Shown one piece after another: positions 1,206 to 36,700 of a stretch of 64,000 nucleotides of DNA. The stretch is from Hoplostethus atlanticus (taxonomy: Eukaryota > Chordata > Actinopteri > Trachichthyiformes > Trachichthyidae). Under the pieces are notes generated by a model. The model saw only the letters and a program-made list of their open reading frames with translations. It was not told the origin of the DNA and did no database searches. The DNA lies in the NCBI GenBank assembly GCA_034670405.1, contig JAXDDX010000117.1:992001-1056000 (forward strand), in the 5' to 3' direction. Position 1 is the first letter of the stretch; each line of letters begins with the position of its first letter. Made by a program: the position numbers and the translations under genes.

Positions 1206-1861
1206 CTATTCTAAAGTGGTCACTAATCCTGCCTTACCAATGGCCAGGGGTGATTTTAGATCCGTTTTTTTTGAAAATCTAAGATTTAAAAAAAAAAATG
1301 TTAACAAATAATACTTAACAAAACTGTAGTAAGCAATTAGTACTTGCTTTTGTGAAGCCCATATGGAAGCAGCATTGCTGGGGAATCTTGAAGTAATGCT
1401 TTACAAGGAATAGTAAGCCATTGTTCAAAATTATGCAGCATTTACAAATACATTAGTAAAGCATTAACATGCCTTAGTTAATGGTTTGTTTATGAATAAT
1501 GAATGTATTTGCTAACATTTGTTAAGGCAACCTTATTATAAAGTGTTACCTCTTAATGGGACTTAATGGGATCTTAGAGTCCTGCATTCATTCTTTCTTT
1601 GCCTCAATAAGCACTTGGCACCCTAATAATGTTGTAATCCATACTTTTTCACTTTTTATTTTTCATTCATACATTTCTTCTAGTGTCAACATTGTCAGTT
1701 GCACGTGTGTACAGTATATAACTATTTACTACATTTTTGTTTATACTCTGTTTTTTCCTGCTGTATCCTGTTACTATTTGCTGTTATAATGGCCTGATTC
1801 CCCCACAGTTATCATTAACGTTTCATCTTAATTACTAAGCCGCAGTGCTGTCTCTCCCCAG
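1206..1861. other. Intron sequence with a degenerate AAGTGTTACC-type repeat
   Basis: No coding signal was seen. From about 1370 to 1551 the text is rich in TTAATGC/GCATTAA motifs and ends TTATTATAAAGTGTTACC, a terminus I recognise from widespread fish MITEs. The other end was not found. The remainder holds only T- and A-runs. Confidence 0.35.
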
Positions 1862-1969
1862 TCGGACCCCTCCAGTGTTCCTCAGCTGGCCTGGCAGTTT
1901 GTTCCTGTCCAGAAGACAGTGAACCCCATCCTGGCCTTCTGCAGAGGAGATACCATACACTTCCTCTTG
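1862..1969 (+). CDS. vps8: VPS8 exon 1 of window (beta-propeller)
   Basis: This exon has 36 codons, phase 0 at both ends. It starts [17 protein letters not shown] and ends GDTIHFLL. The acceptor is ctctccccag and the donor gtatgc. It belongs to the N-terminal WD-like propeller. Earlier exons are left of the window. Confidence 0.9.
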
Positions 1970-4900
1970 GTATGCACTCAACTTCTTCTTTACTTTCTGC
2001 TGTTTCTTAATGCCTTTTATTAAAACTATAATCTATTTTTCATAAAAAGAAATTTAAGAGAATTGTTGCTACTCTGCATTCGGCTGCTCCCAGCAAAAGC
2101 ATTTCTGCTCTCACACTTTCTGAACCACTGCATTATTGTCAAGGAAACTTGACAGTATTGTTTGTGATGTCTTTGTTTTAAGACCAAGGCTTGCTTTTCT
2201 TTTGAAGCCAAAAAGAGACTTGTTGCTGCAACCTTTATGCCTGTCCTTGACTACAGTCTACGCTCTCAGGACTTATTGCTGCTGACTGTCCCCAATGCTC
2301 ATACTGAGATGGGTAAAAGGGCATTTATGCACTCTGCTCCCATGACATGGGGCGTGGGTGGCTGTGGCTCAGGGGGTAGAGCGGGTCGTCCGCTAATCAG
2401 AAGATCGGCAGTTCGATCCCAGGCTCCTCCAGTCCGCATGTCGAAGTGTCCTTGGGCAAGACACTGAACCCCAAATTGCTCCCGAAGCTGCGCCTTCGGT
2501 GTGTGAATGTGTATGAATGGTTAGATTCCCCTGATGTGCAGGCTGGCACCTTACATGGTAGCGCCCTGCCATCAGTGTATGAATGTGTGTGAATGGGGTG
2601 AATGTGAATGTAGTGTAAAGCGCTTTGAGTGGTCGGAAAAGACTAGAAAAGCGCTATATAAGTACAGTCCATTTACCATTTACATGAAATTCTTTACAAA
2701 ATGAGCTTAAACTTGCAGAACTTGTCTCACTTTCTGTTTTTAAATCTTTGAAGGATTTAGAAGCAAACCCATTGACCTGTCCATGTTTTGATCAGCCTAT
2801 TTCCTGTTTTGTATTTATGATCATTATTTTATTTGATGCCTTGTAAATTGTTTTATGTGGTCTGTTGGAAGCTTTTATGTATTGACTTGCACTGCTGCCT
2901 ATTTTGCAAGGTCACTCTTGCAAAAGAGATTTTTAATCTCAATGAGTCTTTCCTGGTTAAATAAAGGTTTATTATTATTATTATTATTAGTGCCGCACAA
3001 TTAATCTAATCGCAATCGCAATCGCGATGTCAACCTGTGCAATTATATAACCGCAAAAGGCTGCGATTTAATTAAATAAACGTGAACGTGACAACCTATT
3101 CGCTGTTTGTGTGCAGTCTGCTACGCCCATAATAAAGAGATGACCAATCAGTCTCTGTTCAGGCAGTGAAGCGTGTGTGCATGGTCACATGACTATCCGG
3201 TGTGGTGCAGAGTCAGATCAGGTGGAAAATGGATAACAACGAGCATGTTGACACTGAACTGGTGGGCAAAAAAAACGTGACAAATGTTATATGGAGATAT
3301 TTTGGATTGAAGCACAGTGACATTGAGCAGAAAGACGTACTGTGTAAAACATGCAAAGTGAAAGTCGCCACATCACGCAGCAATACTACAAAGTTGTATC
3401 CAGGGTCACAAACAACTCGCTTTTCGGCGAATGCCGCTTTTTCACGTCAATTTGGGTGACTTGTGTGATTCGTCCCGATCCAAAGAGTTTTTTTGGGGGG
3501 GTGTATGGGTGTCGGACGAATCTCCTTAACGATTCCTACAGTGTATTTCTGTCAGCTCATATGAGTGAACTGCATTGAGCAAAAAGATTCTACTCAACTG
3601 TCAGGACCTAGTGATGGGAAGACCGACTCTTTTAACTAACTCGATTCTTTCGAGCCGTCCGATAGAAGTGCATCAATTCTGAAACGATTCATTATGATTC
3701 ACCAACCATACCATGTGAGGTTTGAACCTACAATCCTCAGCATGAGAGTCTGATGCTCTACTAACTGAGCTAAACTGGTAATGGAATGACATGAGCGCCA
3801 CCCCTGTCAAACCAGACGTGCAAATAACCACATATACCACAACTGTAAAACACCAACTAACCTACAGGTTAATGACAATAATAATATTTATAGTATTTAC
3901 ACAGAGTATTGCTATTGATTTCATTTTATTTTGTGTGCTCTTGACTTTCTTTTTCTAATAGAGATAGTTTTGTTGACCAATGTTAAATGTTAAATGGCTT
4001 ATTGTTTACCCAATTACCAGTTAATTTATTAAACAACATCTTAAACAACAAAAACTGTTGTCAATGTGTGCAGAATAGATCGCTACATTATTACATTGGC
4101 CTTTTTCACATCCAATATGGGTCCTTGATCCGGCGGGTACGCGGAAGTAGTCTCTCTCGTACATCGGACGTGAACCGCTCGGACATCTCGGACATCTGCT
4201 CTCTCGGTTTGCGAGATGTCCGATGTCCGAGAGAGTCCGAGAAGTCCGATAGAGACTGAACGGTTTGCGAACCGCTCAGTCTCTCTCGTTCATCTGCTCT
4301 CTCTGCTCAGTCGGTCTGTCACGGTTCAGTCAGCCCTTCCGCTCACTCGGATCAGCGGTTCACGTCCGATGAACGAGAGAGACTACTTCCGCTTACCCGC
4401 CGGATCAAGGAGCCATATTGGATTATGAAAAAGGCCAATGTAATAATGTAGAGATATATTACTGTGGCAACTTGCCACCATACTGGGGTTCGTGACAGAC
4501 AGAGACAAGGCAGGAGTTAACTGGCCAGCAGGGCCGTTTTATTCTCAACACAATAAACCCGGCCCGGTGTTGACTGCCGCAGGTCGCGCCGTCTCCCTCC
4601 GCTGACGCACCTCAGTCCTCCCCGGCGGGTCAGCCGCGGAACCCCAAAGCCGGCCAGCCTGCCAGGCTTCCAGGGGCATCCCGCCCCAACCCCGACTGTC
4701 ACCAGCTCTTGCAGGCGGCTCCCAACTGCACCCCCGGGGACCTCTGTCGGTCGTCGCCGCGGAGGGAGACGCACGCTCTCCCGCTCCGTCGTCCAGCTCG
4801 CGCCCTCGCCTCCGTCCCGGCACTCCAGCCGCGGACCCCGCTCAGACGCTGCTGCTGGCCCGTTCCCCCTGCCGACCGGATCCTCCATCCCTGTCGGCTC

Positions 4901-7900
4901 CATTCTCACCGCCAGGCTCTCACACTGGCGCACTCTCGCACACATCCACACACAGGTTAAAAAGGCCCGGCTGCAATCAGCCTTAATTGGCTGCAGCCGC
5001 TGAGTCCAGCCGAGCCTACCACCCTCCCTCCCCCCAGTCCGCCACATACCCCCACCACCAAACTGAGGCCGGGGAGCCGTCCGGCCGAAGGTCCCGCCCG
5101 GAACTGCTCGGAGTCGGTGGGGCCAGGTGATGCTGGGCGGGGTGCTGAGGGAGGCTGGTTGTCATCGCCGGCCATTCTCTGGAAGCTGATGACGCTGTCC
5201 GCGGTGTCAAGGACGGCACGGCGACGACAATGTTCTCCTCCCCGGAGAACCCAGTCCCTGTCTGTCAGGTTCCCGGTCAGGGAACCACTGTGGCAACTTG
5301 CCACCGTACCAGGGTTCGTGACAGACAGAGACAAGGCAGGAGTCAAAGTTAACTGGCCAGCAGGGCCGTTTTATTCTCGTCGTCCAGCTCGCGCCCTCGC
5401 CTCCGTGACAGACCCCGCGGACCCCGCTCAGACGCTGCTGCTGGCCCGTTCTCCCAGCCGACCGGATCCTCCATCCCTGTCGGCTCCATTCTCGCCGCCA
5501 GCCTCTCACACTGGCACACTCTCGCACACATCCACACACAGGTTAAAAAGGCCCGGCTGCAATCAGCCTTAATTGGCTGCAGCCGCTGAGTCCAGCCAAG
5601 CCTACCACCCTCCCTCCCCCCAGTCCGCCACAATTACATTCTATATACATTGACAACAGTTTTTGTAATGTTTAAGATGTTGTTTGATAAATTAACTGGT
5701 GATTTTTTTTATTAATTTTTTTTTTTTCTGCCGCTGCTATAACCGCTGCTGAATCGATTCAGTCGCGTGTGCGAGTCGAATCAACTCACTCACTTCGGTT
5801 CTTTAGAACGAATCGTTCGTGAATTGGCCATCACTATCAGGACCTGCTCTTAAGCAACAGCAGAGCAGACAATCTGCTTCCTGTTTACACCGGCACGCGC
5901 ATGCCCAGTGTAGGTGAATGGTTACGTGATATGCGTTTCAGGCGTATTAGCATGGACGGAGATAATTTCTCAAACGGTGCTAAAATGCTTCTGTGGACGG
6001 AGATCCTTTTAGTTTCAAAAACTCTGTTTTAAAACGAAAACGTATTGGTGTGAATGTAGCCTGAATCCCGTTTCATTTTTAGAAGAGGTTGTACAAAGTA
6101 TGCCCCATTTTGTAACTTAATCACAAATTTTTATGTTACACCCTGCTTAAATGTCCTTGTTTGTTTGGGCATTCAAAATGTCTTATTTTAATGAAAATTA
6201 GTATTTTCTTATTTATTGTTCTATTTATTTAGTTGTACTATTGAGAAAACCTAACAAGTTTGCAGAAATGCCTTTATTTTGAAAAATATATTGTTTATGT
6301 TATTTATTTAATTTTGTAAAATATTAAGTTACTTTGAAAACAGTACTGTACACATTTGTACACATTTTTGTTTTTGTATTTTTTATGCTAGTTTAAGTTT
6401 GTATGTTTGAGTTGAGAAATACACATTTCAAAATTATCAGTAATCTGTGCATTTTCCTTGATAACCAAGCAAGTAGACTCATGATACCATTTGTTTATTA
6501 TATCGCAATCGCAATATTGTCCACAATAATCCCAATATGACTTTTTCACCAAATCGTGCAGCACTAATTATTATCTTATTTAATGTTTGAACTCACAGGA
6601 ATACTGCATGCTAACCGTGTTGCATACTACTACTCGTGTGCAGAACAAGATAATTTCAAAATAAATACCGAATTTAAACCACGCTCAACTCAGAACACTG
6701 ACACACATCAAGGATTACATTTCCTATGGCTTACTACTGTTCATGTTTTACAAGTTTTATTGTGGTCAGCCTGTTACTGAACAGAGGGCATTTCTCAGAT
6801 CTCCTTACCCACACACAGAAATGTGTGTAACAACCAGGCCTTTTAATTATACCGATATTGGAGAAAGGTACAGTATACTGAAGCCTAGTAATTAGTAAGT
6901 ACTGTGGTAAGGAGTGTCTAAATGTAGCCTGTCCATTGCTGTGTGTACAGGTGAAAAAGGAGGACACGGGGACCATCCATGTCATCAAGCAGAGACAACT
7001 CCACCTCAGTTGTGACATCATCAGCCTGAGTGTGAGTACACAACTCATGCTTTATGCATGTACTATGCAAATACAAGTTGAATAGTACTTGCTAAACAGC
7101 TTTCAGATGTCATTTGTGGTCACAGCTCTTAAATCTTCATCACTAAGTGTATGTGCGTTAAGTGAGAAAAAGCTGGTGAAGAACAACTGAAGTTTACAGA
7201 AAAGTTAAATCGCGACATCTTAACGGATTGAAACAATTTGGAACATGTGAACACTTTGAAGTCTTTTACCCATCAAGCCATACCTACAGTTATTCCCATA
7301 TGATGTTAATGCAGCATCACACCGACACAAATAGCATATGCATGTATGCACACATCAACATGCTCTCACACACTCAAGGATGTTGTGGTAAACTGGTGCA
7401 GTGGGAGCCGCTAACGATATCAAATCAAATCTGCAGTGCGAAGAAAATCAACTTTTCCCTTCTCTCTGTCTCTCTCTCTCTCTAGTGGATTAACAGTCGT
7501 ACCTTGGTCCTGGTGGATAGCCATGAGGAGCTACAGGTTGTGGACCGGCCCAGTCAGGAGGTTCTGGAGACTCTGGACCTGGACCAGGTGCAACTGGTGT
7601 ATAACAGCCGACACTTTAAATCGCTGGCCACGGGGGGGAACGTCTCCCAGGCTCTGGTGAGGGATTAGCTGTAGAGGGAGAGGCTCTGGGGTCAGAGGTC
7701 GTGGTTAGGCTTGGCTTTGCGAGGTCAGGGTCAGAGGTCAGGTTTAAGGTTGATGTCTTGGAACAGCCGGTACTTTAAAGCAATAGTGGCAGGGGTTAGG
7801 GATTATCATTAGTAGTTAGGGGTAGGGGTAGTAGTTTGGGTTAGCGCTAGGCTTATGCTGAGAGGCCAAAGAGGCCAGATCAGAGGTTAGATTTAGAAAG

Positions 7901-10900: not shown

Positions 10901-13900
10901 GGAGGTAAGAAGGAGCTGTTCCTTTCACTGCCCTATAGGCTAGCACCAGGGTCTTGAACTAGACGCGAGCCGCTACAGGGAGCCAGTGTAGAGAACGGAG
11001 AAGGGTAGTTGTGTGGGAGAACTTGGGGCGGTTGAACACCAGACGAGCTGCAGCTTTCTGAACAAGCTCCAGAGGTCTGATTGCAGATGCTGGGGCACCA
11101 GCAAGGAGGGAGTTGCAGTAGTCCAGGCGGGAGATGACAAGAGCCTGGATGAGCACCTGCGCTGCCTTGTCAGTGAGGAAGGGGCGAATCCTCCTGATGT
11201 TGTAGAGGAGGAATCTGCAGGCGTGTCACTGATGCGATGTTTGCCGAGAACGACAGTTGGTCGTCCAGGGTCACACCCAGATTCCTCGCAGTCCGAGTTG
11301 ACGTCACCACAGCATTATCAATGGTGATGGCCAGGTCTCGGTGCGGACAGCCCTTCCCCAGGGAGGAACACCAGCTCAGTCTTGTCCAGGTTGAGCTTCA
11401 GGTGGTGCATCGACATCCACTCCGAGATGTCAGCCAGGCATGCAGCAATGCGTGCCTCCACTTGTGTGTCAGAGGGGGGAAATGACAGGATCAATTGGGT
11501 GTCATCTGCATAGCAGTGGTAGGAAAAGTCGTGGGAGTGGATAACAGAACCAAGAGATGTTGTGTAGAGGGAAAAAAGAAGAGGACCCAGAACCGAGCCT
11601 TGCGGAACCCCAGTAGTGAGCCTGCGTGGTTCTGACACAGACCCTCTCAGCGTCACCTGGTAGGAGCGATCCGTCAGGTAGGATGCAAACATGGAGAGTG
11701 CAGAGCCTGAGACACCCATCCCCTCAAGGGTGGAGAGGAGGATCTGGTGGTTCACCGTGTCAAACGCTGCAGACAGGTCCAGGAGTATCAGGACGGAGGA
11801 GAGAGAGTTCGCTCTAGTGGCATGGAGCGACTCCGTCACTGCCAGGAGGGCAGTCTCGGTCGAGTGACCCACTTTGAACCCAGACTGGTGGGGATCCAAG
11901 AGGTTGTTCTGGTGGAGGTACAAGGACAGTTGATTGAAGACAGCACGTTCAAGAGTTTTTGATAGGAAGGGTAGAAGGGAAACCGGTCTGTAGTTCTTGA
12001 CCTCAGAGGGGTCAAGTGTTGGTTTCTTCAGAAGGGGGGTGACTCTGGCAGTCTTGAAAGCAGAGGGAAAGCATCCAGACATCAGAGACGTGTTGATGAG
12101 GTGGGTCAGGAAGGGAAGGAGTTCAGGTGCAGTAGACTGCAGCAGAGTGGATGGGACCGGATCAAGGGAGCATGTGGTGGGGCGGCTAGATGTAACAAGG
12201 TGAAGGACCTTGTTTGGGGTGAGGGGAGAAAAATGGGATAGGGAGGGAGGTGGGGAGGGAAAAGGTGGAGAGGGTGGTAGAGAGGGAAGGCAGACAGGTG
12301 TGGTTGGTGCGCAGGGCACCAGCCGGGGGGTGAGGGAAGGAGGATCGGATATCGTTAACCTTCTTGTCAAAGAAGTTGGCGAAATCGTCAGGGCGGAGGG
12401 AGGAGGTGGGAGGAGGGGGTGGGGTTTGGAGGAGAGAAGAGAAAGTTTCAAAGAGTTTTTTAGGGTTGGAAGCAGAAGTTTGAATTTTAGTGCAGAAGAA
12501 AGCAGCTTTAGCAGCAGATAGAGAGGAGAAAAAAGTGGAAAGGAGAGATTGGAAGGTAAGAAGGTCCTCCGGGAGTTTGCCATTTCTCCATTTGCGCTCA
12601 GCCACTCTCAGGCTCCGTCTCTCAGTACGCACTGAGTCCGACAACCAAGGGGCAGGTGGAGTTTGGCGTGCAGGCCTGGAGGTGAGGGGACAGAGATTGT
12701 CCAGAGAAGAGGACAGAGTAGAGAGAAGAAGATCAGTGGCAGTATCAGGGGATAGAAGAGAAAAAGATTCAGGGGCAGGGAGAGCAGAGAGAACAGAAGA
12801 GGAAAGATCAGTGGGGGAGAGCGAGCGGAGATTGCGTCGAGAAGAAACCATGTGGGTAGGGGGAGGATGTGAGGGGGGAGAGGAGAGAGAGAGAGTGTAG
12901 GACATGAAGTAGTGGTCAGAGAGATGAAGAGGAGTGACGGAGAGGTTGGCAGTAGAACAGTGTCTGCTGAAGATTAGGTCCAGTTGGTTGCCAGCCTTGT
13001 GGGTAGGAGGAGATGGGGAGAGGGCTAGGTCTAAGGAGGCGAGGAACGAAAGAAGAGGGGGTCTCGATGCACTCTTGGAGGAATTTTGGTAGGCCGGCCA
13101 CTCCTGGGAAGGTTCACCACTGTTCCAAGTTTTCTCCATTTGTAGATAATGGCTCTCACCATGGTTCGCTGGAGTCCGAGAGCCTTAGAAATGGCTTTGT
13201 AACCCTTTCCAGACTGATAGATGTCAATGACTTTGTTTCTCATCTGTTCTTGAATTTCTTTAGATCGCGGCATCATGTGCTGCTTTTTGAGACCTTTTAA
13301 CCTACTTCACATTGCCAGACAGGTTCTATTTATGTTTAGATTCAACAGGACTGGCAGTAATCATGCCTGGGTGTGTCTAGTGAAATTGAACCCAATTATC
13401 AATTAAATTTGGTAAGTGGTTGATTTAGTAACTAAGGGGGCAATTACTTTTTCACATAGGGCCAGCTAGGGTTGGATAGCTTTTTTCCTTCAATAAATTA
13501 AATCATCATTTAAAAACTGCATTTTGTGTTTACTCGGGTTATCTTTGTCTATTATTAAAATTGGTTTGATGATCTGAAACATTTAAGTGTGACAAATATG
13601 CAAAAATAGAAGAAATCGGGAAGGGGGCAAATACTTTTTCACAGCACTGTATATATACTGATCTTGTCAACAAGCATGTGAAAGCATGCAGAAAACAGAC
13701 ACATCCATGTTTCACTGTGGAGGTGAAACAACTGAAACGGCTACCAAACACTGAAAGTGTCAGTGAAAGTGTCAGTGTTTGGTAGTGAAAGGGTCAGGAA
13801 GTGACGCCACGTATCAGTCTGCTGTGTTTCCTACAGTCATTGTCAGTAATGTGGTTCCCACTGTGTGTGTGTGTGTGCACCTGTGTATGTTCTGAGTAGC

Positions 13901-19500: not shown

Positions 19501-22500
19501 GGGTGACTTGTGTGATTCGTCCCGATCCAAAGAGTTTTTTTGGGGGGGTGTATGGGTGATGGACGAATCTCCTTAACGATTCCTACAGTGTATTTCTGTC
19601 AGCTCACATGAGTGAACTGCATTGAGCAAAAAATTCTACTCAACTGTCAGGACCTGCTCTTAAGCAACAGCAGAGCAGACAATCTGCTTCCTGTTTACAC
19701 CGGCACGCGCATGCCCAGTGTAGGTGAATGGTTACGTGATATGCGTTTTTAGGCGTATTAGCATTGACGGAGATAATTGCTGAAACGGTGCTAAAACGCT
19801 TCTGTGAACGGAGATCCTACGTATTAGTGTGGATGTAGCCTGAATCCAGTTTCATTTTTAGAAGAGGTTGTACAAAGTATGCCCCATTTTGTAACTTAAT
19901 CACAAATTTTTATGTTACACCCTGCTTAAATGTCCTTGTTTGTTTGGGCATTCAAAATGTCTTATTTGAATGAAAATTTGTATTTTCTTATTTATTGTTC
20001 TATTTATTTAGTTGTACTATTGAGAAAACCTAACAAGTTTGCAGAAATGCCTTTATTTAGAAAAATATTTTTGGTTATTTATTTAATTTTGTAAAATGTT
20101 AAGTTATTTTGAAAACAGTACTGTACAAATTTTTGTTTTTGTATTTTTTATGCTAGTTTAAGTTTGTATGTTTGAGTTGAGAAATACACATTTCAAAATT
20201 ATCAGTAATCTGTGCATTTTCCTTGATTACCAAGCAAGTAGACTCATGATACCATTTGTTTATTATATCGCAATCGCAAATCGCAATATTGTCCACAATA
20301 ATCGCAATATGACTTTTTCACCAAATCGTGCAGCACTAGTGTGAATGGAGGCTTAGAGAGAAACCTATTTATTGTTAGACTGCTGGAAAAGTTCTGACAG
20401 CTTCAGTAAGAAGAGACAAACTTGGAGAATTTGTGGTATATGTGTGTGTGTGCGCAGTGATCTGCTGTTTAACCAACTGTATGGTCGGCTGGTGGAGAAC
20501 GTGGTTGCTAAGGGCGTCTTCCTGGAGTCGCTGGAGTCATACATTGTTGCGGAGCGCCTGGGTCACCTGACCACGCCTGTCATGAGAGACCTGCTGGCTC
20601 ATTACCATGGCAACGGCATGATGGACAGCCTGGAGAACTGCATAGTCCACCTGGATATCACCAGCCTAGACATACAACAGGTGTGGGTGCTGCTAGGAGA
20701 GTACGGTATACAGGATTTACAGGAATATATCAGAATGTATTTTAAAGCTTGTATCACAGATTCGTTGCAGACTAATGTTTACCCCTGTACAACTTTTTTG
20801 AGCTGAAAAACAACAACAAACCAGGAAGAAATGTTTAAGTCATGGAAGTGCTCCAACTGAGTTATGGAAAGTTATGGAATAGTCACACCATATCGTTGAG
20901 AAGCAATAATAGAATAGCTATAACAACTATAATTATAACAACTATAACAAAATAACAATAACGTTTAACAAGTGTCAGACCAAAACTTCTAAGATGTAAC
21001 AAAATGAGTTGCTATACTTTACCATTGGTGTCATTTTTACTAAAGTGTGTCTGTCTGTGTCTGTTTGTGTGTATGTGTGTAGGTGGTTCAGGTGTGTTGG
21101 GAGAACCAGCTCTACGATGCTATGATCTACGTTTTCAACAGTGGCATGAATGACTATATTACACCTATGGAGGTAACACACACACACCGACTTTAACACA
21201 CATGTAAATGCAATCCGCCCCCAGTCTCTCTACATGTATAGATGTTTATCAGTCTGACAGTCAATTAGACAAATCTCTCTTTCTCTCCCTTTCTCTCTTT
21301 CACTCAGTCTATTTCAGTTCAAAGACACTTTGTGGTCATTTCCATAATGATTGGAAATGGATGATGAGTCCACCCTGCAACCTACACTCAAAAAAATAAA
21401 TCATTGGATGAACGTAATTTTATCATGCCACCTATATTCCACTCAATCAAATCAAGTAAAACTAGTGTGTTTTGATTGTGTTATCTGAACACCAAACACA
21501 TTTGTGGAGGAAACTTAATGTTAATATGTAAAGGCAATTTATTTGGCTTTTGTTAAACTAAAATGTTTTGCTTTAGTTAGTCTAATGAAATTCATTTTAA
21601 TCTAATGAACATCAGTCAAACGTTTAAGTACAACAAAACCCTGCCTTGTTGAATGAACTAGTACAGGTTTTATCTGTTTTACTCATGTCAGTCTTGTTGA
21701 ATGAACTAATATGGTTTTTGTTTGCTTTACTAATATCAATCTTGTTGCTTCAATTAATGCCATTTTCATTGCTAGTACTAAGCATTTGTTTCCATTAAAT
21801 GACCTAAGGTCCACAAACTTACATAAAAAAGTACAACAAAAATGCAAAACAATTTCACATTTTATTTAACATTTGGCTTTGACATACAGCTGCCAAGATT
21901 CCGGTTCTTCCTTTAACCCTCTCATGCTATACTTCCCTTAACTTATCATATTAGCACCGACCCACAGGCCACAATTTACCTTAATGCCACCAGAGAATGC
22001 AAACCAACTGTCCTAATTGTAACCACACTGTTCTGAAGGATGGTTGACCCAAACTTCAACATTAAGAGACCAGCTGAGAATTAAATGAGTTGAATAAATA
22101 ACAGGCAAAAAAAAGAGCAATGTATGGAGACCACCATAGAACTTACAAAACTCAGTCAAAGTCACAGCAAGAAGGATTATGAAAATGGAGACACCCTTTG
22201 ACTCTACCTCCCGTGGACATAACATTACACCAGTTCTTTACCATCATTACCTCTACATTGTTTTTCCATATGTCCACAATATGCTAGTTAACTTCCTTAC
22301 TGACATAAAACAGTAAGTGGTTTAATTCCTAATTCCTTCAACTTCTTAAAACACATTTATAAAAATGCAAGAAAATAGACTTTGGAAGCCACAAAATATT
22401 CTTGGCCCATTATAAAAACAAAGTTTACAAAAATCCAAGATGTGTGCATAAATGCAACAATATGCATGAGTGGAAAAAAGTGCAATTTTTCCTTTTAACA

Positions 22501-25500
22501 CTGAATTATTACAATCTAAATCAAAGCTTGCACAATCTTTTTGCTATGTTGATAAAATGTCAAAATAATAACAATAATTGCAAAATACAATTACTCTATT
22601 TAAGGAGGCTATAACTAAATCATGAATTGTGTTTTTTTCTATTTAACATTTAGAGTGAACATATTCATTGTGTGTTCATATTCAGTCATAGCAGTCATAT
22701 TCAAGTATGACTGCTCCACTCACTAAAACAATTTTTGAAACCAAGTGTGTGCGACTGCTCCAGCATCAATAATCGTCCATCAAGTAAAATCAGTGTGCAT
22801 GTATGTGTTCAAAAACACTGCTGTGTGACTGTTCCACCCACACAAAAACGTAGGAGACTTTGCAACCTATGAGACAACAATCTTAGTCTCAGTCCATTGA
22901 GCAAACTAAATTAAATAGTCCTTTTAGACTAAATTTTAAACTTTCAAAGTTAAACAACAACAAAAAAACATCTGCATTGCAGGGATATGGTCAAATAGTT
23001 CAGTCTTCTATCAGTTCTCCATCATGTCTTCTTCAAGCTTACTCACTCCAGAAGCTTGTTTTTTAGGAATTGTGCCTTTGTCGACAACCTCTGGCCATCC
23101 AGATTTTAAAAAATCTTCTGCATGACTTCGAAAGTGCATCTGAGCTCTGGTGGGTAGCTTAGGTTCAAACAGTATATCAGTTCAAATAACAGAGCACAAG
23201 CAATCGCGATGCTCCCCAATTCACGGATGACCTCCACACCTTCAATCAGGACACTGATGTCCTCTGGGTCATCTCCGGGCTCCATACCCTCCTTCTGTAT
23301 GACATACACTCCCATCAAAGTTTGCTCCATGAAACTGTTGGCCTCCATGTCTGTGTCCTGTGGAGTAAAGTATAACAATAAAGCACAATGTGTTTTAGCT
23401 GTACAGGGTTTCAAAATGTATGTTTTGCTGTTTAATATATCATATTTATTACTCTTAATTTCTGCTTTGAATTTAAGATATCAAGCAAGAAAAATGTGCT
23501 TTCTCCAACTGGTCTACAACTACTTTGTCACACCTAGTGAATTTCACAAGTAACTCACCATGTATTCCTTTACCAGTTTCTCATGGTCTTCATTTAAGTA
23601 GGTGCACAAGGACTTGAGGATGCATGCTCATCTTGTATGTATTGTGTCATCCTGTGGAGAAAAAAAAGCAATATTCAGCATTTTAGGAAGCAGTTTGAAA
23701 AAACAAACAAAGCAGTCTTGATAGCAAACTGCAAGTTTGATGATTATTATGCGACGAACAGTACCTTGGTCTCAGGAGCCCAAAAGGCAAGTACTCAACA
23801 TATATATGAGATCTCAACCAAATCAGACACACACCACACACAGGATGATCATTTCATTCATTCTCACTATGTGATTTGACCAATTACTCATCTCTGACTG
23901 AAGCTGAGCTAATCAGTATAATCACCTGATGAAGTTTTTTGATCAAGTCAAAACCTGCATACTCTTGGCACTTTTGCCTACAATATGTATAGATATGTAT
24001 ATATTATGCTCATGCAATTGTCATGACAGGGGCATAAAGTATTTTATAAGCATAGATCTACCCATTTAATACAAACCTTGGAGATGGCCACCATGAGCTG
24101 TCTTATTTTTCTTCCAGCCGCCCCACCTTTGCGTCGAAAGATCTCCATCATGCGTGGCGAGTGTCAGTCAAGCTCAGTAAAGAATGTAGATAGCGGTAAC
24201 GTCGATATGCGCATGAACTCCTTATCGATCTGAAAAACATTAACAATGCACTTGTCACTCACCTCACATTAGAACATCACAACAATATACAACACAGGAA
24301 GGATGGATATTAAATTACTAGCAGTTTGATCACTATATTCGCAATATCAATGAGGAGAGAACTACTCATCTACTAAATATCACATTACCCATATCCTTGT
24401 TTTTGGTCAACACTTATATTTGATTTGTCATTATCTCCCTGTTCTTATGTGTGCGCGCACTCTTGAGGGCAAACATAAAACCTGAGCACATATAGGACAT
24501 GTACCTCTTTCACAGTGAACAGAGCTGGCCATCTGCTTTTAAAGTCTGCAACCAAGGGCTGTCCTTGAAGAACTTCTTGCCTTCGGTATGAAAAAGTCTT
24601 CTCCATTTTCTCAGTCACTATATGGTCATTGTTTCTCTTGGTAATCTCTGAAAGCAGTGCAATTCTCTCCTTTTCCAGACTATCAGTGGTTTCTCCTTTT
24701 GGATGCTGCGGACAGTAATTGACTTCTGAGCTTTTTCACATTCAAGGCTGCCAGACGTTTGTCTTGGGGCTTCAGTGAATTTATCATCACTTCAGTACAT
24801 CCCAGGCCTCATAGTTTGGTCCGGAAGTTGGCCATTTTATATTTAAGGCTTATCTTCCACCCATAACAGCCATTGAAGGATCCCTTTTCACCAAGACAAG
24901 GATGCTTTTTCACAAGTGCTTCTGCAACATCATTCAGATCATTGTCGGTTGGGTATGCTTTGAATTTCATTATTTCTTCTGCCAGTCTTTCCAAAATTTG
25001 GGATTTCAGTTTCGGTGAGGGGCTCAAATGAATTCCACTAGCACTGAACTCAGCATTGGCCTTTTCAAGTTGCAGTTTAGCATCATAGCTGAAACAAGGG
25101 ACTGTGAAAACACTTGGCCAAACCCAAAGTCTTGTAGATGGCGATGAACCTGGAGAAGAAACTGGCTCAGTATTATCTGTGTCAACCGAGGAGATAGATG
25201 AGGAATCTGTTGGGCCCCTGTCTGCTCGAGGTTGACGTGTCCTTGCATCATCTTCTTCAGTTTGCAAGTAGATCAACTTAATGGTTGCTTTGTCATCAAT
25301 TTCAGAGATCACAGACAGGTTGATTAACTCATTTCCGAAATCAGCATCTTGATACTGAAGCCGAAAATCTTGTTGCAATCCAAAACTGGTCTTTATTGTC
25401 TGGCACAATTCCTCTATGGAGTCTGGTATCCCTGCTGGCAGAATTAGCTTCCTGGCATCATCTTCACCAAGGAGGATTCTGAGTCTTATGGGCTGGGTCA

Positions 25501-28500
25501 TTGTGTAGACCTAAAAAAAGAAACACCAATTGAATATTTCAGAAAAAAAACAAATCAAATCAAAACAGGTATTCTGATTTAACCTTTATTTCCACTAAAT
25601 TCTAGCTTTCCTGCCACTAACAAGTGAAAAAATTACCTTCACTGCAAGGCAATCTTAAAAAGCATTCTTTCAAGTACCATTTAATTTGTAAGATGGACTG
25701 AGCATTGAGGAACAGGTAAATCAGGAGGATGAGGACAAATGTCAGGCTGTTTATAGTTGTGCAGATATTTGATTCAGGCAATAAGCCAAGCTGTAAACAA
25801 GGTCAAAACATCACTAGTCAAACAGCGCCTAATTGCTTTCTTGTGTGACTGAGGGTTTAAAACATTAACATTGACCTTCAGAAGGGGTCAAGAAGACCAG
25901 CGGGGATGACAAAAGCCATATTATGTGTTTATAGACAAATTAATGTAATGTAAAGGATACAGAATGAAAATCCAGGTATCAAGGTAGTGTATGTGCTTTG
26001 ATTGTATATACATATTGTGCTAAGCAGAGCTGTACTGATTTGACAAATAATTGATTGAAAAAAAAAAATTTATGGAAAAAAAACTTGTTGTTGAATTGTT
26101 TAGTCATTTAATTAAATTATCAAGCAAAAATTCCATTCTCTGGTCCTAGCTTCTCAAATGTGATAATTTGCTCTGTTTTATATTGTAAGTGAATATCTTT
26201 TGGTTTTGGACTGTTGGACAAAATAATTTGAACACGTCGCCATGGGCTCTAGGAAATTGTGATTGAACAGAAAGTTTTGGGTGAGGCCGATTGGTTTTAT
26301 CTCCCCATTTGTACTCAAAATCTTTGATCAAATTGTTAAGTTAAGGTGAAATACTTTTTAGAGATCAAAACAGACAAACAATGAGCAAGCTCCACGGGTA
26401 TTACGCCCTCAAATAGATCATGAACTACATCTGGAGGGTAGCCTGCAGTGACATGAAAATGGGTGAGATTCTTATTCAAAACACAATCCCGTTTAACTCC
26501 ACAGCACAAACGTGATGTTTCTAGTGCACACTTCAAATGGGCTTCATGAAGTTCCCGCGTTCTATGCTCAAAAACACCAGCAGTCAATGACTGAATTTCT
26601 GATTTCTTAGCTGTGCAGAATCTACAGATGTATTCACCAGAAAAACTTTCTACAAAACCTGCCAGCCCATGGGCTCCTAGGTTGTCAGCTATTACGCAAT
26701 TCACTGTGCCCTTGATACACTCGTTCAATTGACTGACGAACACACCATGTTGCTCCAAGATTACCAGATCTTTCAAAAGTGGATCCAACACTTTTTCAAA
26801 CCCAAATGTCTTCAAATCTTCACTTTTACAAAGAACAGCCAAATAAATGGATGAGAGAGCAGAATGAGAGCCAGGCGGCAAATTGCACAAGACCCAATAT
26901 ACACCACAAAGCTTATGCTTTTTGCGTGAGGTCCCAAGAGGATTACAAACCTCAAAATCGTCGATATAAAGTTGTATGGAAATTCTCAACTTCTCGACAG
27001 CTAGAAAGCTATTTGTTTTATAATGCTCACCATCTCGAAAAGACTTGTAAACCCTCTGATCACCATGCAAAACTTCTCTATTTTCTTGAGCTATTTGTTC
27101 TTCAATCACTTTATCCAGTAATTGATTGTGACTCAGTATTTCCTGCAATAACTGTAATAAAGGGATGAAATTACCTCCTTTGGTCTACAGATAGAAAATA
27201 CTCAGTAGGCTCTACAACCCTAAAATGTAGCTTGTAGTATTGCTTTCTTTTAAAAGAAGTGGCAAGAGGGCCACACTTTCCCAAAATATTAGGCACAGGG
27301 TTAGAAACACACACAGAATTGGCAAGTTCTTCAACGACAGCCTGACCAACATTAAGGTTATGGCTTTTGAAAATTTCTGTAACTGCACGCTTTGTGACTG
27401 GCACACAAGCTGAACTTAACAAAAAATGCAACTCTTCCAACAACTCATCTACTGCTGTTGCTGGAATATGAAATATATGTTCCAATTTCAACAATATTAC
27501 TGCTATTTTCTGCTCAATTAGTTCTGGCAGATTTTCATCACCGTCAGCACCTTCTGTCTCTGACTCGGTTTCAACATCAACATATGATACATCAGCAGAA
27601 CAGCCAGCCCTCACATTATCAGAGGTATCTGACACTTGCACCGGGTCCACAAATACAACTACACCTGCTTTAAAATCTTTCAGTGTGTGTGGATGATGCT
27701 TCCTGTTTTTGTGTGTATAAAATGTACTGTAAATATTTGTCTTGAAAGGGCAACCAAGAAACACACAACTAACTGTCTCGTTACTTCGCAGATGTGTTCC
27801 AACATGAACAAAAAAATCTTTCTCTGTGGAGAGGTCACTGCATTCACATAACCCACATTTAAAAGTTACTGAACTGGTAGCTGTCTGTGTAAACTGAGAT
27901 GAATGAGCTTTATAGACATGGGTGTTGAGTGCACTCCACGTCTTGAATGTGCATGGACAATTTACATATATGCACAGATAATGCAGGCCTCTTCCAAAAT
28001 GATGATGTAGTTTATAATGTTTAAGCAATTTGTACCTACTACTCTCTCTGGCGACACAATGTTTGCACTGCCACATACACGTCACTGAAAAAAAAAAAGA
28101 AATGCATCAGCCAATGATAAAAGCTATTAGCCAAATATAGTTAAAAAACACAAAATATTTAACACTACATTTCAGCTAAATCATGAAACCTCAAAGTGTA
28201 ATATACATATGATAACAGATAAGGAATAAAATGATTTAAAAAAAAAAGATATATATATATATATATAAACTTACCAAGTATTATACAGGATGGGCACAGA
28301 ATTCTGAGTGCTTGGGGACACTGCTTTATTTTGTGATGTATTTCTGGTGAAAAGAGAAATTGTTTTAAAAAGGTTATTACAACGGAAGTAATATTTCTAT
28401 AGTGAATAAGTATTTCAATATCTATATTATAGACACAATGTGAGGACTGTTGCTATTTATTCAACCTTAATGTAGAGGACCACGGAGCAGAAAAAACAAT

Positions 28501-31500
28501 ATGCAATATTCCACCCGATTAAAAAGGTTCTGATTACAACAATTGCAAAAGGGCCAAATATGATTTCCATGACTGACCGATGAAGGCCAAATACCTAGGA
28601 AAAGATCCTACTACTGTGCTAATGTGATGTTATAGAAGCAGAAAAAGCACTTGCTATTACTTTAGACACTCCGATTTTATCTTGCTTCTTGTTATTATTT
28701 CCCCGCCGTCATACATGAACAGGAGATTTATTTCTTAAACAGTAACCGCAACACATGGGTCCGCCGATAAGTGTTGCGCTAACCTGGGCTCTATGTGTAC
28801 AAATTCGTCATTTATACCGCAAAATAGGTACACACCGCGTCTCTCTCATAGCGAAGCCGCTAGCCTGGCTACAACACAGGCACACGTTCCACACCAAGCG
28901 AATCTCTCAAAGGGATATTACCTTCACTGAAATGAGAGTGTTAATTTTAAACTGCTGGTTGCAGGATTCTTTTTCTGCACCGCGGTTCACCGGCGAGAGT
29001 TTCTACATAGAGCACAAAAAAGCCATTTTGACAGATAATGTACTTGGAGTGTAAATAAAGACAACCTAGCCATAGCAAAGTTGAGCTAGCCTTAACTGTG
29101 AGAAACATGCGCGACAAAACTCACGTTTTAGAGAAAGCTTGCCAACTGAGAAATGTCTCACAAGTGTCTTAAGAACTACTACTCATCCTATTGAACTAAA
29201 TAAATTCATGTAGATATAAAATAATTACTTACTCTTAATATCAAGGATGCCAAACGATTAGGTGATTAGGTGAAAGTCCTCTCGCATGTGCTCGTTAACC
29301 TTCTAAATCAACGTTATCGCGGGCGATACTTTCTGCATCCGGTGGGCGTGGAGCACGCGCAAAAGTCAGAATGTCAGAATCATTGTTTCGAAATATCTTG
29401 TTCTCGTTGGACCAACATATTTTGATTGCATTCATCAGAATTTTCTTTGAGTCATGTCCAACAGACACGAACCAATCATTTAATGAACATAAACACAATA
29501 AATGTATTTAATACTAACATATTTCTAGTTTGTTAATCAAACACATGCCCTAGTTCATTTTTTTGAGTGTAAGATCTCATTAAGATCTAGTGAAGGGAGC
29601 TTTGTTAGCAAGAAAGACAAGTTTAAAAAAGGTTTGAAAGGAAACCAATGTTCAGAATTGCTATATACAATCTAAATATCACATCTGAGTAATGGTAATC
29701 CAAAATGTTGAATTTTGGCAACTTACCACGAACGAAACAAAGGGGTTAAATACTTATGCAAACATGATTTCTCTGTTATTTTTATGTTATCCTTTCAAAT
29801 AAATTTCAACAATTTTGTTTTCACTTTGATAGAATAGAGTGCTTTGAATAGAACTCAGACGAATTATCCCAAATAAATCTGTTTTGAAATAACTTAATAG
29901 CACAACAAAATGTGCAAAAAGTCAAGGGGGTTGAGTACTTTTGCAAGGCACTGTGTTTATATACTGTACATATACTACTTATTTGGAGCATCTACTCATT
30001 ATCATTAAGAACTGCTCAAGAAACCAGGAGACAGAGACCTGAGATATTCCCCTAACATCTCCAGATGGTAATGATGCACCTCGGTAGCATGGAGGGATGT
30101 TACCTGCAGTAACATGAAAGGATGTCACCCAGAGTAACATGTTACCTGAAATAACATGGAGAGATGTTGGCTGGAGTAACATGTTACCTGGAATCTGGCT
30201 CTGCAAATCATCGTTCAAAAGACGGCACAGCTCAGTGAACAAGGCCAACACACATAAACCAACCACCCTCCGCAGGATACAATGAAAGGCTTCCTAAATT
30301 CATTCGATTTACCAAAATGGGAATTAGAGGGTGCAATTAATAGATTAAAATCCAATAAATAATGATGTTTTTCCGTCCGATTGGTATAAGACCTTTAGAG
30401 AGTTGAGCCCCCATTCTCATAGCCTCATTCAATTTCAACCTCAGAGAAGGCAGAATCCCCCCTTTGTGGAAAGAGGCCATTATCTCAGTCATTCCCAAGG
30501 AAGGCAGGGTGCTAATTTTAGACCAATCCCAATTTTGAATGTAGATTAGAAGATATGTACCTCGATTAGCTCCAAATGAGTTGAGACCTTTATGCCAGAC
30601 ATAATTAATGAAGAACAGACAGGTTTCATTAGAGGACACCAAACAGGATAATATTAGAAAGACTGGTGCAAAAGAGGGGGTCTACTGCTATACTGCTGAG
30701 CCTTGAAGGTAGAGGCGGGAGGCAGGAAACATAAAATTTGACTTTTTGCAGATGACATCATCGTCTACTATAAAGACACCTGAAGTCTGTTTTTCTAAGT
30801 TAGTCAGCCTATTAGAAGTTTACCGTCATTATTCATGATATGAACTCAATGTCAAGAAGACACAGATCCTGTCCCTTAACTATTCCCCAGCAAAAGAAAT
30901 TTGAGAAGAATACAACCTCAAATGGGAAGCAAATTCAATTAAATACCTGGGGGTGAACATTACTAAGGGGATGACGAAATTATATAAAACAAACTACACA
31001 GATAGTTAAAGTAGATATACTACCAAAGTTACCGCATTTCTTGTTTCAATCCTTACCAGTGATGGTGCCACAAAAACAATTCTCAGTCTGGGATAAATGG
31101 ATATTGTAGGTTTATTTGGGGCGGAAAGAAGCCCAGAATTAAGGATGTGACAAAGATAAAGGAGGAATGGCACCATATAGCTAGGAAGGAACACCCCAGG
31201 GTTCAGTGAATCATGGCTGGCCTAGCTAACCTGATGTTTTGGGTGATGGAGTCTGTAACTAGGGTAACGTTACACAGTTCACCACATGCCTGGGGAGGGG
31301 AGGGAGTTCGTCGGCCATCGGGGCTAGCAAGAGGTGCAAAGTGATTTGCACTCAGGACTAAGTTAAGTTGCCTACTTCCTTGTTGTATTTCAGAAACTGT
31401 TTGCAGTGATTGGCCCACCACTTCGAGAGGGGAGGACCCTGACAGGTAAGCCTTGAGAGTACACCTCCAAGAGTTCATAGTATCAGCAATTCATTGTAAA

Positions 31501-33738
31501 TATGGATAGTGCAAAGAGGACAACGAGAAGCTTTTAACTTTCTCTCTTTCTCTTTGGACAGATGAGCAAGTGGTGATGGGAAACAAGCTGTTGGTGTATA
31601 TAAGGTAGCACACACAGAGACATCAATTCACTAAGTTTTTGCAGCTGATATCATTTGCCACCAAAATTTCCAAATCTGCTTATAACCACTACATTTCTGT
31701 GGACAAAAAGTGAAGCAATGACTGATGGGATACTATTATTTGCTCAATGAATTATTAGATGTAGGTCACCAAACTAGAGGGAACATTACAACATGGCAAG
31801 CGTCACACCGTGCCATACCCAATGGACGCCAGTGTGTTCACACATCATACACACATGCCTGTTAAATAGTTCATAAAGAAATCACACACATACGCAAAAC
31901 CTGCTGTGAACTATCTATCATCTCTCTCTCTCTGCTTCTCTACCTTTGTTTGTCTATGTGTGTGTATGTGTGTGTATGTGTGTGTGTGTGTGTGTGTGTC
32001 TGCCTGCCTGCCTGCCTGCCTGCCTGCGCATGTATAGTTGCTGTCTGGCTGGCAGAGCCTATCCACTAGGAGACATTCCTGAAGACCTGGTGGCTCAAGT
32101 CAAGAACCAGGTATGTAGATGTCTTTGTGCAAGTCTGACTTGGCCAGTGTGTGGATTTCTGGGTATGGGTATTAAAAGTTACGTCTCGCTGCCAATTGGG
32201 GGCCTCCAACGGGTGAAATTGCCCAGAGCAGCTTTAAGATTAGGTTTAGGGTAAGGGTTAAGATTAAGGTTGGTTTAGGGTTTAGGAATTAATTTATTCA
32301 AATGAAGAATTCATTCTCATTGTCGTTTTTTTGGAATTCTTAATTGTTTGGAAATCTCAAATTAACTTTTCTACACATGCAGAAAACAAAAAAATAAATA
32401 TCTAAGGCCTAACTTTATTTAAAAAAATCTAAAATCTAAATCTAAAAAAGTGAAGTGACATAATGCATATTTGAGAAGCTAAAAATTCAATTTCATATCA
32501 TCGATTGTGTATGTCCGATTTGGCGATGGGTGTCTGGATTTGCCCATTTTTACCTTACTGCTCATTTATAGTTTCACAACTTTCATTAGCTACATTCGTA
32601 TAGAAACAGGCTGGTTTTGACAGCTCTCTTACTTTCTTTCGGTGTTAAATTTGACTTAAATTGACCATGAAATTCACCATTAAATTGACCATGTATGTGG
32701 TCACCATGGCAACAAGCAAGTTTGTGGGCTTTATATTTTTGGCTGGAGAGAAGGAAGAGATGGAAAAATGGAGTGATAGAGTAGGAGGTGCAGACTATTT
32801 ATATTTTTTCATCAAGAAAAAAAACTTTTGTAAACCTGATTGTTAAGACTTGAAGACCAATATGACCAAAAGTTTGTTTCTGCTCTACTGGAATTTAGCT
32901 AAGACGGTGTGCCGGAGTTTTCAAACTCAGCAGTGACATGGAGCAGATGTCTGAACTCCAAATGTCTAATGAAACTAATTATGGTCACATCTTTCAAGCA
33001 ATCAAAGAGGCGTCCACATACCTTGTTGCACAGTTAGGGTAGGGCAGTGTCTGAAAGATGGTGTGAGAGGGCAAACTGCTTCAAATGCTCCATTAAGGGG
33101 GGCTGTCATCCAGTGCAATAAACTCAATATTTCTCCTTTTTTAAAATTATTTTTCACTGTCATAGGGTAATTTATAATAATTCAATGCATCCTCTAATGC
33201 TGCTTGGGTGCAGACTTCTTCTGATTTACTATCTGTGAGAACTCATTGTGCTCCTTTGCTTGTTGATGGCAAATACGTTTTTTACATCAATTTGCCAAAA
33301 TGAATCAGAGTGTGGGAAATTAAATATAAAAAGAAATGCATCGGGGGTTATCGATACAATAAATTCACCGAGATTGAGAGTAGCAAAACAGACATTTTTT
33401 GATATGAAATGTCACAGAGTAGTATTTTCAAGATCTCTCATTAAGGGTCGTTTTAAGGGTGTGGGAGTATTGCAGGACACTACAGTGACTGTTTTCCCAA
33501 GGCGCACTGTGCACACTAAAAAAATTGAAGAGCACAGGTAAGAAAGCTAGGACTATGATCTGACACTCATTGCAAATGCCCATCCATATTTTGAATCTCA
33601 AATTGCAGCTCATGCTTTTCCAAGTAGCATGAATTCATAGTTAGGAGTATGCTGCTAACCGTGCTGGGAAAAAACATTGTCTCACAGATTCCGACAACTT
33701 CCTTAAAGAAGAAATATAATATTATGTGTTTTGTGTTA

Positions 33739-33779
<41 letters not shown>

Positions 33780-36700
33780 TTTGTGTGTGTGTTTGTGTGT
33801 GTGTGTGTTTGTTTGTGTGTGTTTGTGTGTGTCTGTCAGGTGTTTGAGTTCCTGATCCGTCTCCATTCAGCTGAGTCATCGGACGAAGAGGAGGTTTTTC
33901 CATATGTCCGCACGCTCCTCCACTTTGACACCCGGGAGTTCCTCAATGTCCTCGCCCTGGTGAGCTACAACAACAACACACAGGTACAACTTCGCCTCCC
34001 ATATGCCCGCCGGACCGCCAGTCAAACCAAACAGCCGATCAAAAGACCCTTGATCAGTTAACCTGCCTATCCTCTGGCCCGTGAGAGATTTGATGTGATT
34101 TGATCAAATATCAAGGAGGCTGATGCGTTCAGGGTGTTGACAAACTGGATGATTGGCACTTAAATGACAGCAGTCGTGGGAGATTTACCTGAACCAATGG
34201 AATATAAACACTATTCATTTCCTTTCCATTCAATCAATTCTGAATTGGGACAATTGAATTTGAAATTCTAATTAAAATTTAAATTAAATAATAATTACAT
34301 TCAATTGCAAGCCATTACATCCGATTTCCAATTGTGCCTTACAAATTTTACACTTTAAACTTCACTCAACAAATGCGTTTTTTCACTTAAACGGAAATAT
34401 TTTTTCAATATGAGCATAGCAAATTCAAACTCATCCAAACTAATCTGTTTACATACACAAGGGAACGTGCATTCCTGCCTAGAGTATTCTTAGTCATGTG
34501 ATTTGGTAAAAAATGTCATCCAGTTTGTCACTGGCTTCATATTGCCATAATCAACCTGCTGTACAGCTTTATGTATACAGCCTTTGATAAATGATCTGCT
34601 TTCAGGCATTTCTCATTTTCCATCTTTAAACAAGTGAAGACACTTTCACGTCTTTGACCAAGCAGCTTGCAGAACTAAGATTCTTTATTTTTTTTTTTGG
34701 AATATTTTCTTTTTGTCATTCTGTATTCTGTCTCTCTCACCCTTTGCTGTAGACGTTTGAAGACTTCAAGAATGACAAGCAGGCACTGGAATACCAGCAG
34801 AGGATAGTGGACATTTTATTGAAGGTAAAATCCCCCAAAAGATCCTCAGCATGCAAGGTCTTTTTCAGCAACACCATATTTGCGTCGTATTCATGCATAC
34901 ATTTTGAATTTAGCAATTCATGGGCCTGGTCCCCCTGTCTTGGGGCTGCTTTTCTGATTTTGTCAGCAATTGGATCATACCCTGGTTCAGTCATCAGCCT
35001 CAATTGTTTGTGGACAATCACATTAGCCAAGAGTTGCTTTACTTACATGGGTTAAATGTAAACACAGGTCGATGGCATCCAATCCACAAACTGCCAGTAA
35101 GTCCAGTCTAGTCAGAGTGCTTGATAGCTGTATTTGGACTGCCTCCTTGGAGGACTCTTCACTTCCTGTGTGTGGAGATTTCCTACCAGTGACCATCCCC
35201 GACACCAAAATTACACTGAAAGACGGCTAGATTCTTAGGGATTTTTAGCCCTAACCTGCATTGCCTCCTATTATTTTACTTTACGTGACGTTTACCAAAC
35301 ACAGGATCAATAGTACTAGTACTAGTACTTCTTTACTCCTCTGTTACATTCAGTTTCACTCTCTATAGACACTCTATTTCTCTTTTACATTGTTTCTCTC
35401 TTTTCATCTCTTTGGAGTATTTTGCGTTGCTCAGGTTATTAATGTCTCTTTCTGGGTCCAAGGTGATGGTGGACAACCCTGACTTTACCCCCTCCCAGGT
35501 GGGTGGGCTCTTCACCTTCCTGGCTCGCCAGTTGGCCAAGCCAGACAACACGCTGTTCGTTAACAGGAAACTCTTCGACCAGGTAAACAATCAAATCCCA
35601 GCATGTCACAAACATTTCAACACCCTACTTCTTACCCAACTTGTATCCAGGACCTTCATCGTGGTGAAGTAGCTTTCAAATGAGCTTGATCAAACAAAAA
35701 CATTTTATTAAAAAGGTAATTTAATTCTTCCAGACCATCCGAAGCAGTGGTTACTACTGGACATTATCCGTCTCGCACATGTGTAAGTTGAGCATTTGTA
35801 CCAACAAAGTCCTGTGTGACCAAGGATGATGTAAGGCAGTAACACCCTCAATGTATGAAATAATAATATAATGATAATAAAGCCCCAGTTATCCCGAAGT
35901 CGGCTCCTTCTACTTTCTTGCAGATAATTTGCATCTACGGACCAAGTTAAAGGACCGTTAGTGCCTTGTATATCTATTGAATTAGCTGCAACATTTTCAC
36001 TGTTGTACCCTTATTAACCAGCTATGAAGCTATGTTTTGGCCAGCATGAGCTATCTGTCCTTTCTCCCTGTTGTCCGAGCCTGTGTTTTCTCCCATGCTC
36101 TGTCAGTGCCCACACTAATGATTGCACTCCTGCCACCACTGCTATTAACAGGCTAGCCCTGGCTCAGGTCATTTCTTGCACTGTTAGCTTGATACGAGTC
36201 AGGGAACTGTTTTCTTACTAAAGGACCTATTGTCTGGCATAAAGTGTTTGTACTCACAACTACAGAATAGGCCACTGTGCATGGAACTGCTGTTCTTGAA
36301 AAAGTTACTAGTCTAGCTTCTTGTTGTAAGGTAGTAGTTAACAAGTGATTGATCGGTCATGTTACATCAGAGTTGCGCTTGCCTTCAGTGTTGAGTGACT
36401 GTTTGTCTACCTACTTTTGAGCCCTTTGTGCAGTCTGAGCTGAAATTAATGTCTAACAAGATAGCCCTGCTTCTGGCTGTAGCTTTTCCAATGCAAGGAT
36501 CATCTCTGCCATTGAATGTGAAGGGCCATTCCACTAGTGTCTCCATATCCTGGGCTGTACTGAAGGTTGTGCTGCAGGTATCTAGCCTTCACCATGCACC
36601 TTTGCTCGGTTCTAGCTATTCCCCATGCTGTGACAGTAGCTGTTGAAACGATGCCTTCAGTCTTTTCTCAATAGAACAAGATTTATGAATGTAGCTACAG

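Follow-up and report, generated by a model that had tools for sequence, protein, structure and literature searches.

Do two neighbouring genes on the minus strand of the genome of the fish Hoplostethus atlanticus form a single mobile element, and what does the second of them contribute? The question is raised by an 8185 bp unit at positions 21385–29569 of the window, the whole stretch of 64,000 nucleotides analysed here (C117:992001-1056000 of a genome that totals 632.8 Mb over 1161 contigs; C-numbers denote contigs, L-numbers loci or stretches examined). The unit carries a gene for a C2H2 transposase of the DDE (Asp-Asp-Glu) type and, downstream of it, a spliced gene whose product starts with a PB1-like region. 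The two-gene transposon is real and recurs; it is a CMCT-clade variant with a conserved second gene, and the copy in the window is dead, with both genes broken. Taken as a whole, we think it probable that the locus is a dead copy of a cut-and-paste CMCT transposon whose second protein is proposed to act as an assembly factor.

Recurrence and largely shared evolution of the gene pair

The genome searches score the best candidates only, so all counts of places are lower bounds. The places are also not all independent: C120 and C786, which hold the same copies at equal identity, look like one locus assembled twice and probably are, and perhaps C20 and C306 are too. Exon 1 of the PB1 gene gave 129 matches in at least 96 places of the genome, and the transposase core gave 145, of which 144 entered the pair count, in at least 124 places. 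With this first PB1 query the two genes lay within 10 kb of one another 46 times, and in 41 of these cases PB1 was downstream of a transposase that shared its strand. A transposase was then counted as paired if the second gene matched no more than 10 kb downstream of it in the same orientation, and transposases were classed by completeness and by identity. With a second PB1 query (135 matches, from which only three places distant from the earlier loci were added) 42 of the 124 transposase places were paired, where 0.097 pairs are expected by chance. When the C-terminal exon served as a further query (143 matches; 120 at E ≤0.001 counted, 23 weaker ones kept separate), 47 of 124 were paired and 3 more had the gene only in another arrangement.

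In the near-intact class with at least 48% identity, all transposases but one (13 of 14) are accompanied by the second gene; the exception, on C91, has a same-strand C-terminal exon 10.7 kb downstream, just past the limit. Shorter transposase places are paired less fully (29/51 at 48% or more, 1/4 at 44–48% and 4/34 at 30–44%). Restriction of the second gene to the transposases of at least 48% identity does not hold, since a diverged relative lies downstream of transposases at 30–34% identity. An exon at C106, reached through the SAMD3 query described below (15 matches; three at PB1-clade places excluded and two pieces merged, leaving 11 counted) matches seven places that are mutually 99–100% alike. 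Six of these are on the same strand as, and downstream of, such transposases, at distances of 2.69–2.77 kb (four places), 6.0 kb and 12.1 kb (one place each). At C90, by contrast, a C106-type exon lies upstream of the transposase. The seven copies are at C5:5543068, C210:280082, C210:319094, C210:622341, C238:382082, C458:49975 and C67:47263, and protein identity of 99–100% suggests a family that was recently active or recently duplicated.

Twenty stretches, representing 19 PB1 places, were examined, and a transposase or remnant was found at 15 (L014, L015 at a distance of 6.9 kb, L016/L017, L019, L020, L021, L023, L025, L027, L028, L029, L030, L031, L032 and L033); none was counted in the stretches of L018, L022, L024 and L026, and L028 holds an extra PB1 copy in opposite orientation. 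The genome contig collection searched yielded a single relative, L049 (NZ_JAPEHV010000011.1, 1-5927), a 5.9-kb contig of 38.6% G+C that is listed under Microbacterium sp. C7(2022). This contig encodes the four fingers and transposase residues 1–416, followed directly by the PB1 gene on the same strand, and its DNA is 86–90% identical to L021 in the two best pieces. L049 is probably AT-rich animal contamination in a bacterial assembly, and as such shows the pair in a second genome. The preliminary description had made its proposal depend on the pair recurring on the same strand within 10 kb, and it does so, with its order kept, both in this genome and in L049.

The two proteins also share much of their history. 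Trees were built for 14 of the 16 loci with both proteins (L019 and L028 were excluded for short overlap), and the two distance matrices correlate at 0.92 over 88 of 91 pairs, a value reached in 0 of 9999 permutations. Both trees contain the groups L021+L049, L030+L032, L023+L027, L033+L042 and L014+L017+window. The two genes have thus travelled and largely evolved together across the families of this genome. When L021 is compared with L049, PB1 has an omega (the ratio of non-synonymous to synonymous substitution) of 0.27 and the transposase one of 0.47; between families omega is 0.09–0.16, values that are only indicative as synonymous sites are saturated. Given the recurrence, the largely agreeing trees and the pair in a second genome, PB1 is a standing second gene and not chance cargo. 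The earlier description of it as cargo is therefore doubtful.

Ends, target site and decay of the window copy

The unit had been described as bounded by facing CACTC-type inverted ends with TA flanks, and it holds up as such: the ends are observed and the boundaries agree with other copies. Within the 64 kb there are exactly two occurrences of CACTCAAAAAAAT, which face one another at 21385 (plus strand) and 29557–29569 (minus strand), where 0.013 exact occurrences are expected under a first-order model. Counting TA, each arm is 18 nt long (21383–21400 and 29554–29571), and the two show 94% complementarity. Three further copies, each with flanks of its own, start exactly at CACTC: those on C5 and C32 after TA, and that on C120 after CA. 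Searches with the left-end DNA found few copies (C5, C120, C786 and a 45-bp match in C32), and those with the right end found two C9 copies at 73% and the inner 45 bp in C120 and C786. The C5 copy is 95–97% identical to that of the window in three aligned pieces.

Equal 2-bp flanks are found in 5/5 elements: TA in the window copy and TG in L021, L024, L025 and L026. In L021 (on C15) both genes are enclosed by CACTGTAAA ends, located at 1414 and 8591; the other three have CACTGAAAA- or CACTGT-type ends. The inverted ends of these elements are thus of a CACT(C/G) type and rich in A. No trusted end pair was found for L020, L023, L030, L031, L032 or L033 in the stretches examined, and L030 shows one end. 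The target of L024 is a host repeat, of which an uninterrupted second copy, 91% identical, lies about 0.6 kb away with a single TG at the joint; a 2-bp duplication is therefore shown directly at this one site. An empty site of the kind that the preliminary description had proposed to look for was found once, in this relative, with TG in place of TA. For the window copy the TA flanks would represent a 2-bp target duplication.

Features of the element are given in table 1. The four C2H2 fingers noted earlier in the transposase are present as four patterns in the N-terminal frame (0 of 1000 shuffles reached four) and are also found by pattern in L020 and L049. The gene is frameshifted and split over two frames, and its match to the 897-residue L020 protein covers only residues 2–600; RFEAKH, the motif that contains the last catalytic Glu, was absent from all six frames of the element (patterns RFE.KH or MRFEA). 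The C5 copy retains a 603-residue open frame with the motifs. The PB1 gene extends over about 23.1–25.5 kb and is divided into four or more exons, whose limits were set by eye and with tblastn; it contains three in-frame stops and one frameshift, the damage to exon 1 being judged against the C5 copy.

Table 1. Features of the element (window positions).
Feature	Position	Strand	Basis or state
Whole transposon copy	21385..29569	-	8185 bp; terminal repeats and boundary agreement with C5, C32 and C9 copies
Left terminal inverted repeat CACTCAAAAAAATAAA	21385..21400	+	end-repeat comparison
Right terminal inverted repeat CACTCAAAAAAATGAA (inward reading)	29554..29569	-	end-repeat comparison
Presumed 2-bp target duplication, left copy, TA	21383..21384	.	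read from sequence
Presumed 2-bp target duplication, right copy, TA	29570..29571	.	read from sequence
Transposase N-terminal part, four C2H2 fingers (304-residue frame)	27171..28085	-	open reading frame, homology, finger pattern
Transposase core (270-residue frame)	26336..27148	-	open reading frame, Pfam, homology, motifs; C-terminal part and last Glu missing
First Asp motif	26951-26968	-	motif search, core frame
Second Asp motif	26669-26692	-	motif search, core frame
CRFC motif	26615-26626	-	motif search, core frame
PB1 gene exon 1: PB1-like domain, linker, conserved region	24502..25501	-	one stop and one frameshift
PB1 gene exon 2	24077..24229	-	limits by eye; one stop
PB1 gene exon 3	23562..23655	-	limits by eye; one stop
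PB1 gene C-terminal exon	23073..23372	-	limits approximate

VPS8 coding sequence (PF12816) flanks the element on the plus strand at 20372–20806 (61.1 bits) and 33726–34061 (30.1 bits), which places the element inside a VPS8 intron with its genes antisense to VPS8. Rfam gave no match at gathering scores between 20000 and 31000 of the window, and neither did the NCBIfam and PADLOC scans. Elsewhere in the window, a reverse transcriptase reading frame lies at 11318–12583 on the minus strand (PF00078, E 8e-35), and a 1.1-kb repeat forms an inverted pair, 91% identical, close to both window ends (1–1093 and 59058–60142).

Role and origin of the second protein

The N-terminus of the second protein is modelled as a ubiquitin-type beta-grasp fold followed by a helical region, and PF00564 (PB1) matches 5 of the 10 exon-1 alignment members at E ≤0.1, with a best E of 0.00048. 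A forkhead-like winged helix (profile against PDB, FOX chains at E 0.33–0.94) finds no support in the model, which has four helices there instead. A single-sequence structure with a mean pLDDT (predicted local distance difference test) of 47 was not used for the fold search, and the PB1 protein had no match among plasmids. In the mechanism that we propose, the C2H2 fingers would bind the element ends and the DDE core would excise and insert the element with a 2-bp stagger. The second protein would be an assembly factor that self-associates via its PB1-like domain and helps to pair the ends or to load the transposase; PB1-bearing derivatives without transposase would have moved in trans. Helper proteins of this kind are TNPA in En/Spm and the Myb-like protein in Harbinger. 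We regard the chances for and against an assembly role as about equal.

The gene had been called SAMD3-like, and at least 99 places are matched by the two PB1 queries. Such genes are therefore repetitive in this genome, and the shared evolution of the two genes suggests, as was proposed earlier, that they belong to mobile DNA and not to the host. Vertebrate SAMD3 has an N-terminal SAM domain, whereas the element protein starts with a PB1-like domain, and no SAM domain is seen among the Pfam matches (E 0.1) of the 10 exon-1 alignment members. Human SAMD3, used as an approximate query sequence, matches the element profile at 35.9 bits over its residues 138–336 (0 of 1000 shuffles were reported). 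In the genome it gave 24 matches at E ≤0.01, with a best E of 4.7e-7, and 22 of them are at known element PB1 places; this search showed no host gene that matched clearly better, though one could still exist. As the query sequence is approximate, the match is a lead only, and SAMD3 may be a relative of the second protein. A low-copy SAMD3-like exon occurs at L050 (C106:755700-756700), C352:69288, C90:1552404 and C436:9554, without stops at C106, C352 and C90, and may represent either a gene of the host or a further old family. We tentatively raise, as a view that has less in its favour than against it, that a whole animal branch of CMCT elements has long required the PB1 protein as its second subunit, and that SAMD3 is a domesticated copy in which PB1 was swapped for SAM.

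How else could the second gene have come to lie there? Two unrelated insertions side by side, with ends from different elements, are scarcely credible: nested insertions are common in the window and split the C120 copy, but order, strand and spacing are repeated at many places and L021 holds both genes between matching ends, which contradicts chance juxtaposition. Capture of a host SAMD3 by an ancestor of the transposon, and its carriage as a passenger ever since, would account for the similarity of the human SAMD3 query to the middle region of the second protein and for the SAMD3-like exon on C106 and its relatives; we nevertheless consider it improbable, as the gene stands beside nearly every near-intact clade transposase and is conserved between L021 and L049. 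Rather less improbable, but still unlikely, is that the PB1 gene serves the element in host interaction, as an escape from silencing or degradation, much as TET/JBP might in fungal transposons. TET/JBP genes are reported in PMC12730594 to pass between superfamilies, whereas the protein trees here largely agree.

Our preferred reading, a two-gene transposon with an assembly factor, has to be set against several observations that weigh against it. Among shorter clade transposase places 21 of 51 have no second gene nearby, and none of the 21 near-intact transposases at 30–44% identity is paired with these queries, which may be too distant to detect a second gene in the 30–44% classes. The trees disagree on L020 and on L023+L027: a transposase node with 95% support, which unites the groups of L021 and L033, is missing from the PB1 tree, where L020 instead falls with the L021 group at 80%. 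Agreement is thus strong but incomplete, and some old exchange may have occurred. Within families omega is 0.41–1.07. L024, L025 and L026 are bounded by both ends and contain PB1 without a full transposase, and the PB1 gene of this family decays near-neutrally (omega 0.73–0.89). TG is not present at every left end of the L024 family; the C43 and C48 matches begin after TG. The structure model was built from two sequences only (mean pLDDT 64, predicted template modelling score 0.40), and ubiquitins match the modelled fold about as well as PB1 domains do. Both domain assignments of the preliminary description fall short in the window copy, PF00564 with E 0.00048 and 20.5 bits against a Pfam cut-off of 23.6, and Tnp2 (PF02992) with E 0.0028 and 17.3 bits against 28.6; Tnp2 reaches 12.8–15.3 bits in three relatives and has no match in the others.

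Formally, the bounded copies with PB1 and no full transposase amount to the two genes being found apart, the outcome that was to have refuted the proposal, and they imply that the PB1 gene is not needed in cis. L024, L025 and L026 lie in different genomic places, their aligned pieces are mostly 91–98% identical (some 77–87%), and the left end of the family has 8 matches in the genome. L025 retains transposase residues 853–895 upstream of PB1, so these families look like deletion derivatives that moved in trans. L018 and L022, without transposase in the stretch, resemble L019, which has a remnant. Half of the C-terminal exon matches (60 of 120) stand alone, with no exon 1 up to 8 kb away and no transposase up to 12 kb away. 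More than 10 places (C51:434872, C69:1527065, C17:77393, C58:2847806, C28:3549687 and others) match the C-terminal exon only, at 39–41% over query residues 35–106 and mostly in a 143-residue open frame, and are apparently a short derivative family.

If the two-gene reading is true, fish 'SAMD3-like' gene models are largely transposon genes to be masked or reannotated, fish CMCT elements have a conserved second gene with a testable part in transposition, and the origin of SAMD3 is a question that a tree can answer. Were SAMD3 indeed domesticated, humans would owe this gene to an EnSpm-like element, with SAM as another self-association module.

Placement among known systems

The CMCT clade comprises EnSpm/CACTA, Mirage, Chapaev, Transib, Plavaka and ESTA, and plant En/Spm also encodes a second protein, TNPA. 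In literature searched at the level of titles and abstracts, no PB1 or SAMD3-like second gene was described for such elements, though a description in Repbase only is possible. Viral contigs were scanned with the PB1 protein, the alignment of PB1 sequences and the core of the transposase as queries, and no relatives were confirmed, and the transposase had no match among phages.

According to PMC12730594, EnSpm/CACTA elements have 5'-CAC...GTG-3' termini and a 3-bp target duplication, and CMCT transposases have C(2)C and H(3-4)H between the second Asp and the last Glu of the DDE triad. The element shares with EnSpm/CACTA its CACT ends, with the 5'-CAC...GTG-3' termini, and the DDE arrangement, which is found in L020, L035 and L041 in the order DDFE, ADNLGAH, CRFC, HHFLEH or HHYVEH, RFEAKH; the window copy is without the last Glu. 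It differs in its four N-terminal C2H2 fingers, its PB1-like second gene and a duplication of 2 bp, seen in the flanks of all five elements and at the L024 empty site. The CACTA/CMC placement proposed earlier is therefore retained for the transposase, which is of CMC type by its motifs, and fails for EnSpm/CACTA in the strict sense, since the target duplication is 2 bp and not 3; it lies within the 2–5 bp of CMCT elements.

Plavaka is approached through PF18759, which L021 matches above the cut-off (27.7 against 26.3 bits), whereas L030 stays below it at 20.4 bits and the remaining transposase proteins scanned have no match listed. ESTA elements resemble ours in their EnSpm-like transposase and in the TA flanks of the window copy, and differ in that L021, L024, L025 and L026 have TG flanks and that fungal ESTA carry TET/JBP, as described in PMC12730594. 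PIF/Harbinger elements share the two-gene layout with a helper protein, while their transposase, ends and helper are all different.

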